From NCBI GenBank assembly GCA_018654575.1, contig JABILI010000097.1, positions 1 through 64,000 of the forward strand: a stretch of DNA of 64,000 bases. The letters are read 5' to 3'. The DNA is from Porticoccaceae bacterium (lineage in GTDB: Bacteria; Pseudomonadota; Gammaproteobacteria; Pseudomonadales; Porticoccaceae). Position numbers and translations under genes: made by a program. This document shows positions 3,059 to 29,231 of the stretch, one piece after another. The notes beneath the pieces were generated by a model. That model was not told the DNA's origin. It was given only the letters and a program-made list of their open reading frames with translations, and made no database searches. Position 1 is the stretch's first letter. Each line of letters starts with the position of its first letter.

Positions 3059-3133
3059 TCGAACAACTTCAAAAAACTTCTTAATATTCGCTATCACTGT
3101 CGCTATTTTAAACGGATGCTCTGTTATAATTCT

Positions 3134-3310
3134 CGTTCCTGAGGTGTTTGCCAGCCAAGAAGTCCCTGAGCCGATAATTATTATCCGGCTTCTTTTTGTC
3201 AGCATTGTTGTGCAATTCCGTGCGTCGGAAAGCCTGATGTGTTGCTAGAGTCGCCAACTTGAACTCTTCGGTTCAAGGCCACGTTGGCAGCGGCACCCTG
3301 GGGTTTCATT
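3134..3310 (+). ncRNA. ssrS: 6S RNA
   Basis: Conserved blocks CCTGAGGTGTTTGCCAG...GTCCCTGAGCCGATAA...CTTGAACTCTTCGGTTCAAGG...GGCAGCGGCACCCTGGGG between zapA and ygfA (same locus as in E. coli); preceded by TATAAT at ~3125. Confidence 0.9.
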
Positions 3311-27509: not shown

Positions 27510-28466
27510 TTAAACATCGATGATGGTTTCTCTCTCCTGAATCAATCCTACTATCTTATCTGACAGCCACTGATGAATTGGCGAACCAGAAGTACGCTGA
27601 TGCTGAAGTAAGACTAATTTTATTTTACCTTCGTGGGGAATATCCGCCGGGTAGCGCTTACGAACAATGCGATGCATTTCTCGCTCCATAGTCACTCCGT
27701 ACTTAGCCGCAACCATCAGGCAGTCGGTGTCACATACGGTCTCCATTGCGGTCATCAACTGGTTGGTCACCAAGGTCTTTTTACGCTTGAGACCTAACTC
27801 CCGAAGCGCTCGATCAAATCGAGCATCAGTTCTTGCGCTGACTCTCTTGGAGATTAGTAGATAATATTGAATAAACGGATATTTAAGAATTTCGGCCAGT
27901 GTGACGGTCTCTTTATGTGCTAAGGGATGGCCTTCCCGCATCCAAATTGATGGGGTAAAAATAGCCAATGGTGTTGTCGAAATATCGTCTGTCGTGGTCT
28001 TTTCAATATCGATCGCAAAATCTAAGACACCGTCGGCTAGCTCACCTTCCACCGAGTCAGTTTCACTTGAGATAGATAAGATTAATCCTGGCGCATATTC
28101 AGTAATCACTTTGGTTAACTGTGATATCAAAGAGATAGCGACAAATTCGGGTACAGCAATGGTAATCTCACCAACATAAGTTGTGGGGTCAAATTCACCC
28201 TCACTAACCATATCCAGAATCCCATCAAGTAGTCTTGGTAATCGTTGCTGAAGGTCCCTTGCTTTTGGCGTGGGGACGAGCTCATTGCCAGTTCGTGTAA
28301 ACAACGGGTCGTCAAGTTGATAGCGCAATCGCTGAAGCACGCGACTCATAGCTGGCTGGCTGATAAATAGGCGTGCAGCGGCGCGAGTAACACTTTTCTC
28401 TTCAAGCAGAGCCTGTAGCGAAACCAGTAGATTTAAGTCAAGCCGTGAAAGTTTTTGTAAGTTCAT
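27510..28466 (-). CDS. LysR-family transcriptional regulator
   Basis: LDLNLLVSLQALLEEKSVTRAAARLFISQPAMSRVLQRLR N-terminal HTH. Confidence 0.92.
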   Translation of the reverse strand: MNLQKLSRLDLNLLVSLQALLEEKSVTRAAARLFISQPAMSRVLQRLRYQLDDPLFTRTGNELVPTPKARDLQQRLPRLLDGILDMVSEGEFDPTTYVGEITIAVPEFVAISLISQLTKVITEYAPGLILSISSETDSVEGELADGVLDFAIDIEKTTTDDISTTPLAIFTPSIWMREGHPLAHKETVTLAEILKYPFIQYYLLISKRVSARTDARFDRALRELGLKRKKTLVTNQLMTAMETVCDTDCLMVAAKYGVTMEREMHRIVRKRYPADIPHEGKIKLVLLQHQRTSGSPIHQWLSDKIVGLIQERETIIDV

Positions 28467-28495
28467 CAGAGCCTCTTAGCAGGTATACCAAAAAC

Positions 28496-28530
28496 GCATA
28501 TAGTTCATGCAATAAATGCATTTGTATTAT
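28496..28530. promoter_or_regulatory. Putative LysR operator copy 1 (T-N11-A type), between lysR and a rightward promoter
   Basis: GCATATAGTTCATGCAATAAATGCATTTGTATTAT; 30/35 identical to copy 2 at 28747-28781; overlaps -35 TTGTAT (28522-28527), 17-nt spacer, -10 TATATT (28545-28550). Confidence 0.6.
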
Positions 28531-28556
28531 GCCTCGTGACCAACTATATTAGCAAC

Positions 28557-28712
28557 CTCGAAGTAGTCATTAGATTTTTTAAATCCAACAGCTAAGAACT
28601 AGATTTAAAATTTGACCCGAGAGCGCACTACCAGTTTCGTTCGCGACCATTACCCCTCTTAATCCTGCTACAGGATTTTTCAAAGGGACCTTTCTAAGGT
28701 CCCTTTTTTTTT
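28557..28712 (+). ncRNA. Putative ~150-nt orphan transcript (sRNA candidate) from operator copy 1 to its terminator
   Basis: Promoter-like elements at 28522-28550 and strong terminator at 28682-28712, no ORF over 10 codons noticed between. Confidence 0.4.
28661..28712 (+). terminator. Double hairpin terminator, copy 1
   Basis: AATCCTG-CTA-CAGGATTTTT followed by AAAGGGACCTT-TCT-AAGGTCCCTTTTTTTTT (11-bp perfect stem). Confidence 0.85.
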
Positions 28713-28746
28713 CGTGTTTCGAAAACCCTAAGGTCATATCATTTAT

Positions 28747-28781
28747 GCATATAGTTGATGCTTATAATGCATTTGTATTAT
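28747..28781. promoter_or_regulatory. Putative LysR operator copy 2
   Basis: GCATATAGTTGATGCTTATAATGCATTTGTATTAT; contains near-palindrome ATAATGCATTTGTATTAT; -35 TTGTAT 28773-28778, 17-nt spacer, -10 TATAGT 28796-28801. Confidence 0.6.
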
Positions 28782-28848
28782 GACCTCTCGCGCAATATAG
28801 TACGCGCATCGGAGCAATAACGCTCTCAAACGGTTAAGGAAAATAGAA

Positions 28849-28956
28849 ATGACACTCGTGTATTTGCTCATAGGTTTCACTGGACTAGCAGGTGCTGCCA
28901 TTGCGAAAGATGACTTCGCTAAGTTGGAAGCACCAGAAGTAAAAAACAAGCAGTAA
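28849..28956 (+). CDS. 35-aa hypothetical small (probably membrane) protein
   Basis: MTLVYLLIGFTGLAGAAIAKDDFAKLEAPEVKNKQ; preceded by AAGGAAAA Shine-Dalgarno-like sequence, own promoter and terminator; below ORF-track length cutoff. Confidence 0.6.
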   Translation: MTLVYLLIGFTGLAGAAIAKDDFAKLEAPEVKNKQ

Positions 28957-29024
28957 GAAAAACCAGCCCGCTTAGTGGCTCTAAAAATAGTACAACCAAA
29001 TTCAGCTTGAACCAAACCCCTCTT

Positions 29025-29074
29025 AATCCTTGCTATAGGATTTTCATAGGGACCTCCTAAGGTCCCTTTTTTTG
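29025..29074 (+). terminator. Double hairpin terminator, copy 2
   Basis: AATCCT-TGCTAT-AGGATTTT followed by AGGGACCT-CCTA-AGGTCCCTTTTTTT; same arrangement as copy 1. Confidence 0.85.
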
Positions 29075-29231
29075 CACTATGCTTTTAGTCCGGACCGCAC
29101 GTGCTATTAAAGAGCTAGCTTTATATCTACTACAGGCACAAACGCCTTAAGTCTGGCCGCCTGAAAAGAGTAGTTTTAATCGCAACCTCAGCCGTAATAT
29201 TTCCCATGGCAGTTTTTAACTAGCATAGATG

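Follow-up and report, generated by a model that had tools for sequence, protein, structure and literature searches.

Comparison of a locus in the SAR92/HTCC2207 genus with its relatives points to a system in which a dedicated LysR-type regulator probably switches on tandem sibling small RNAs (sRNAs) together with a tiny membrane protein. At the level of sequence, the repeats found at this locus, their conservation, the constraint on the open reading frame (ORF), the terminators and the confinement of the operator to the lysR locus are established. Together with the near-invariant short RNAs and the unannotated peptide, the lysR gene would constitute a compact, testable post-transcriptional switch. 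Neither the RNA nor the peptide falls in any Rfam, Pfam or NCBIfam family.

Genomic setting of the locus

The window analyzed here is a stretch of 64,000 nucleotides whose source genome belongs to the SAR92/HTCC2207 genus (family Porticoccaceae). Bacteria of the SAR92 type are frequent in coastal waters. The gene order in the window is coq7, lysR (reverse strand), two short units, trpC (reverse strand) and further trp genes; gene names at the locus were read from translations, and coq7 and trpC served as probes for the loci of relatives. The regulator gene and the units are as follows:

27510..28466, - strand: lysR, encoding a LysR-type regulator of 318 aa, divergent from both units (Pfam domains; coq7 neighbor)
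28557..28711, + strand: unit 1, predicted noncoding RNA of ~155 nt (fold z-score -3.2; genus classification)
28808..29073, + strand: unit 2, predicted coding and regulatory RNA of ~266 nt (sequence, fold; 35 ORF-bearing units in the genus)

The lysR product matches the Pfam domains HTH_1 (2.5e-17) and LysR_substrate (4e-17), both over the Pfam cut-offs, and its nearest solved structures are the LysR-type proteins 2uye, 5ae4 and 1uth, with OxyR far behind. Relatives in the LysR alignment include SAR92 clade bacteria, HTCC2207, MOLA455 and others, and lysR adjoins coq7 in nearly all of the same-genus loci examined. A Trp leader peptide was discounted because trpC is on the other strand.

In several relatives, the space between the units and trpC is occupied by a crp-like gene. 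This gene is absent from window positions 29075-29231 and has no match at E ≤ 1e-10 in the window's own genome (97.6% complete), while in the close relative G028 (G028:C42:172610-173151) it is in two pieces, with a stop. Elsewhere in the window, a 6S RNA is found at 3133-3308 (+ strand; Rfam RF00013, 82.8 bits).

Operator blocks and promoters

Each unit is preceded by a copy of a conserved block and by a candidate promoter:

28496..28531, + strand: operator block 1, overlapping the unit 1 -35 (repeat comparison, relatives, genome-wide pattern search)
28507-28521, + strand: T-N11-A box of block 1, ATGC-N7-GCAT (conservation in relatives)
28522..28550, + strand: predicted unit 1 promoter, TTGTAT-17-TATATT, with an inferred start at ~28557 (sequence; -10 place kept in first blocks)
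28747..28782, + strand: operator block 2 (repeat comparison, relatives, genome-wide pattern search)
28758-28772, + strand: T-N11-A box of block 2, ATGC-N7-GCAT (conservation in relatives)
28773..28801, + strand: predicted unit 2 promoter, TTGTAT-17-TATAGT, with an inferred start at ~28808 (sequence)

The initial annotation located the paired 35-bp blocks correctly: they start 251 bp apart, are identical at 30 of 35 positions (five differences; 79% identity over 47 bp) and are followed by TTGTAT-17 nt-TATATT and TTGTAT-17 nt-TATAGT, both of which are present in the sequence. It had also proposed a ATAATGCATTTGTATTAT palindrome as the LysR-type T-N11-A site, but the conserved box is instead ATGC-N7-GCAT (28507-28521 in block 1), which fits T-N11-A and is kept in 48 of 49 first blocks and 37 of 38 later blocks (85 of 87 in total).

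Whole genomes were searched for the operator pattern, allowing at most two mismatches and using the backward pattern as a control. In the window's own genome only blocks 1 and 2 were matched (control: 0); no third site was found, in a search that would miss a diverged one. Eleven SAR92 genomes contained two to three matches each, all at the lysR locus and with none for the control, although one of the three in G006 is an overlapping reverse-strand match. The single match in G061, which belongs to another family, lies beside its lysR homologue, and the order-level genome G060 has one match with two mismatches. Beyond the core SAR92 set, 48 loci were scanned with a profile of the SAR92 blocks, and in 30 of them it matched no more than 200 nt upstream of lysR (p ≤ 0.01 per locus, uncorrected for relatedness). 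The 48 loci include close relatives and reach as far as Halieaceae. Conversely, loci L131-L134 have kept lysR and are missing both the block and the units. Based on the conservation of the box, the presence of the block profile upstream of lysR homologues, the pattern in L131-L134 and the confinement of the operator pattern to the lysR locus, LysR is the likely binder of the block boxes.

The lysR homologues of L131-L134 are 69-70% identical to the window lysR and have no recognizable operator or units beside them, which is a possible case of decay of the lysR/short-unit system. An array with three operator sites occurs at G007:C71:82495-84084 (L038, L096), where the assembly contains N runs inside a unit.

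Unit types and conservation among relatives

A DNA search with the locus region gave full or partial matches at E < 1e-11 in 49 of the 51 genomes from the same genus; below E 0.01, no other genus contributed a match. The arrangement coq7-lysR, block, unit(s) and trpC is present in nearly all of ~50 SAR92/HTCC2207-genus genomes, and the order coq7, lysR, block and unit(s) is maintained among relatives. Behind the common block at these ~50 loci, a motif search gave approximate counts of 35 ORF-bearing units, 21 noncoding A units and 24 noncoding B units, the last having ACCCCTAACCCCTCTTTG..CAAAG and a GGAGCC..GGCTCC terminator. The existence of a third unit type in relatives goes beyond the initial annotation. 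The window array consists of a noncoding A unit and an ORF unit; many relatives have an ORF and a B unit, several relatives with 1.2-1.7-Mb genomes have A and B units without the ORF, and L135 and L136 have lysR plus one short noncoding unit only.

Outside the genus, lysR homologues of other Porticoccaceae and of Halieaceae are accompanied by a diverged operator, often with a different tiny membrane-type protein encoded behind it. In a class-wide lysR survey, the only matches outside the order adjoin a gene read as nadB and lack a tiny-ORF array. The paired architecture was checked in related genomes and is conserved there. The earlier proposal that one LysR drives two short dedicated transcripts with divergent cargo agrees with the co-conservation of operator, lysR and terminated units across the genus, which extends across families in diverged form. 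Whether the locus represents an undescribed type of regulon in marine Gammaproteobacteria seems to us evenly balanced; in such a regulon, one LysR clade would control an evolving array of short transcripts that have a C-rich sRNA end in common. Gain or loss of a tiny membrane protein on these RNAs would make coding and noncoding siblings interchangeable outputs of a single switch.

The order-level lysR homologues L084, L085, L087 and L089 were not counted; their box differs, and the gene that follows it is longer. In the Halieaceae-type loci L081, L083, L086, L165 and L176, noncoding or tiny-ORF units are divergent from lysR and have the motif TCCAGGTCC, or a close variant, before the terminator; this motif is possibly a second seed type.

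The shared RNA 3' end

The following elements make up the 3' ends of the two units:

28652..28661, + strand: ACCCCTCTTA, the C-rich stretch of unit 1 and its proposed seed, predicted unpaired (invariant or nearly so in A-type units)
28661..28677, + strand: hairpin AATCCT..AGGATT of unit 1 (alignment, fold prediction)
28682..28711, + strand: rho-independent terminator of unit 1 (stem covaries among relatives)
29016..29073, + strand: unit 2 3' module, consisting of ACCCCTCTTA, hairpin AATCCT..AGGATT and terminator GGGACC..GGTCCC-T7 (repeat comparison, alignment, covariance model)

The identity of the two 3' ends had been recognized in the initial annotation as a two-hairpin terminator; the ends are indeed the same, but only the second hairpin terminates and AATCCT..AGGATT does not. 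Specifically, both 28652-28711 and 29016-29073 contain ACCCCTCTTAATCCT, the hairpin and GGGACC..GGTCCC followed by a T run. A covariance model for the shared end was built from genus sequences, the two window copies among them; it matches each of these copies at E ~3e-14 and finds no third copy in the window's own 2.4-Mb genome. Because the model matches twice and not a third time, and because the operator pattern likewise occurs only twice with no control match, the repeat is not due to chance.

Across 40 A-type sequences the module from ACCCCTCTTAATCCT to AGGATT is mostly invariant; in the aligned A-type set ACCCCTCT is invariant and the hairpin letters after it are nearly so. As the first hairpin is invariant, it cannot be proven by covariation, while the terminator stem varies through the compensatory pairs GGGACC/GGTCCC, GGGGCCC/GGGCCCC, AGGACCC/GGGTCCT and GAGACC/GGTCTC. 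The unit 1 RNA folds better than shuffled sequences (z -3.2), with the C-rich stretch predicted to be unpaired between hairpins; for the whole of unit 2 there is no such advantage (z -0.6). Rfam searches at gathering and relaxed thresholds returned nothing credible at the locus, and no family reached its gathering score.

All three unit types close with a C-rich stretch (ACCCCTCTT) that is followed by a hairpin and then by a rho-independent terminator. This module persists in ORF-less units, in small-genome relatives and in the minimal loci L135 and L136, and in some of the small-genome relatives the protein has been lost and the RNA end kept almost letter for letter. The RNA end itself is therefore under selection, and such RNA-only lineages are an example of how the protein part of a dual-function RNA can be lost. 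Mainly because the RNA end persists in ORF-less units, we interpret it as a small RNA whose seed is C-rich; it looks like more than the site of termination alone that had been described earlier.

A different explanation, which we consider unlikely, is that the regulon produces small proteins only: LysR-driven tiny membrane proteins would modulate a transporter, the 3' end would only terminate and stabilize the mRNA and the noncoding units would be decayed, ORF-less copies. Such a system would resemble that of WatR, which drives one-helix small ORFs (smORFs) via boxes at the -35 (PMC10355033); transporter modulation of this kind has been proposed for WatS/WatABO. It would suit both the purifying selection on the protein described below and the tiny membrane-type proteins that accompany many lysR homologues. 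However, ACCCCTCTT precedes the terminator and shows stronger conservation than the letters of the terminator stem, which vary in a compensatory way. Furthermore, noncoding units retain ACCCCTCTT and promoters even without any ORF, whereas decayed copies should lose ACCCCTCTT.

An extra copy of the 3' module was found on another contig of one relative (G025:C49:3232-3296, E 3e-8).

The 35-aa protein of unit 2

Unit 2 contains one short ORF:

28849..28956, + strand: 35-aa ORF MTLVYLLIGFTGLAGAAIAKDDFAKLEAPEVKNKQ, with one hydrophobic segment (dN/dS, Shine-Dalgarno-like site, shared core)

This ORF is a conserved protein, a point that the initial annotation did not make. Its dN/dS is 0.11 (40 distinct ORFs), a Shine-Dalgarno-like sequence precedes 40 of 41 ORFs and the proteins of ORF-bearing units across the genus are 35-40 aa in length with one helix. 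In other Porticoccaceae, the tiny proteins behind similar boxes have a hydrophobic segment and, after it, the core G-x-x-G-x-A-I-A-x-(D/E)-(D/E); those of Halieaceae-type loci are shorter. Because the alignment of these proteins across families is loose (mean column identity 34%), a common origin is likely rather than certain. The tiny proteins have no match at E ≤ 0.001 in Pfam or NCBIfam. In NCBIfam, the window peptide comes closest to the hypothetical-protein model NF010229 (E 0.019, under the model cut-off).

It is very unlikely that the regulon is one of sRNAs only, with the ORF a passenger or its translation serving only to protect the transcript. While several lineages have lost the ORF and kept the RNA end, the low dN/dS of the ORF and the protein core common across families despite little DNA similarity argue against this. 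As a small hydrophobic peptide adjoins a short noncoding RNA, the locus might also be taken for a type I toxin-antitoxin system in which the membrane peptide is the toxin and the noncoding unit the antitoxin RNA. This is hardly credible, for three reasons. First, the units have sense rather than antisense sequence in common. Second, pairing between the seed region of the noncoding RNA and the ORF start is no better than for shuffles (lowest p 0.05 in 32 comparisons). Third, some lineages have kept only the RNA.

Comparison with known systems

By analogy, the locus works like a combination of the VtlR-AbcR and WatR-WatS systems. In Alphaproteobacteria, VtlR (LsrB) is a direct activator of VrsA, of a small-protein gene and of one AbcR sRNA; AbcR1 and AbcR2 are tandem siblings encoded beside vtlR, one of which it activates (PMC7486931). 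The likeness lies in a LysR-type regulator that directly turns on sRNAs and small-protein genes. In contrast, the VtlR box GCAT-N3-TG-N3-T (PMC7486931) is absent here (in neither block is N3-TG found after a GCAT), the regulator neighbors coq7 and trpC/trp genes rather than trxB, there is no Rfam match at the locus and coding and noncoding units with the same RNA end share one box in one array. The locus suggests that Gammaproteobacteria, too, have LysR regulators of small RNAs and small proteins, as Alphaproteobacteria have VtlR.

WatR of Methylomonas sp. DH-1 controls several unannotated one-helix smORFs (WatS1-5) via T-N11-A boxes at the -35, and also an RND pump (PMC10355033). The regulator type, the boxes at the -35 and the one-helix tiny proteins are alike. 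However, the WatR box is ATTGTT-N11-AACAA (PMC10355033) and not ATGC-N7-GCAT, the WatS proteins are ~50 aa in length and occur in several annotated neighborhoods of the genome, and no sRNA is mentioned for WatR-WatS (PMC10355033). We have filed the locus under neither system because the VtlR box, the trxB neighbor, an Rfam match and the WatR box were not found, a separation that rests on box, neighbor and Rfam features. Within the library searched, no paper describing a small RNA from SAR92 or HTCC2207 was found.

Hfq-associated sRNAs and dual-function RNAs of the SgrS/SgrT type have an unpaired seed before a hairpin and a U-tail terminator, and the dual-function RNAs also carry a small ORF. 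The units studied here are similar in their seed (predicted to be unpaired), hairpin and U-tail terminator and, for unit 2, in the small ORF on the same RNA; they differ in that they belong to no sequence family and in that the seed is near the 3' end and common to coding and noncoding siblings.

Proposed mechanism

We propose that LysR binds the block before each unit, overlapping the -35, and on a signal would turn on two short terminated transcripts; it probably also controls its own divergent gene. Both transcripts would carry a common sRNA module consisting of an unpaired ACCCCUCUUA, a hairpin, a U-rich linker and a terminator with a U tail. Unit 1 would be RNA only, while unit 2 would additionally encode a 35-aa peptide, putatively located in the inner membrane, and is predicted to be a dual-function transcript because the peptide ORF is on the same RNA as the sRNA module.

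The most likely action of the sRNA module is Hfq-aided pairing with target mRNAs in their G-rich translation-initiation regions. Both the window's own genome and 35 of 36 same-genus genomes searched encode Hfq, and the locus has the further features of Hfq-dependent trans-acting sRNAs: a promoter (by consensus only), a rho-independent terminator with a U tail and a conserved seed that is predicted to be unpaired. A search for seed sites (AAGAGGGGT before ATG) yielded few sites and no convincing target in the window's own genome, and the excess of seed sites over the control is not clearly specific to the genus. One seed site lies 8 nt before an ORF taken for a hydantoinase-type subunit.
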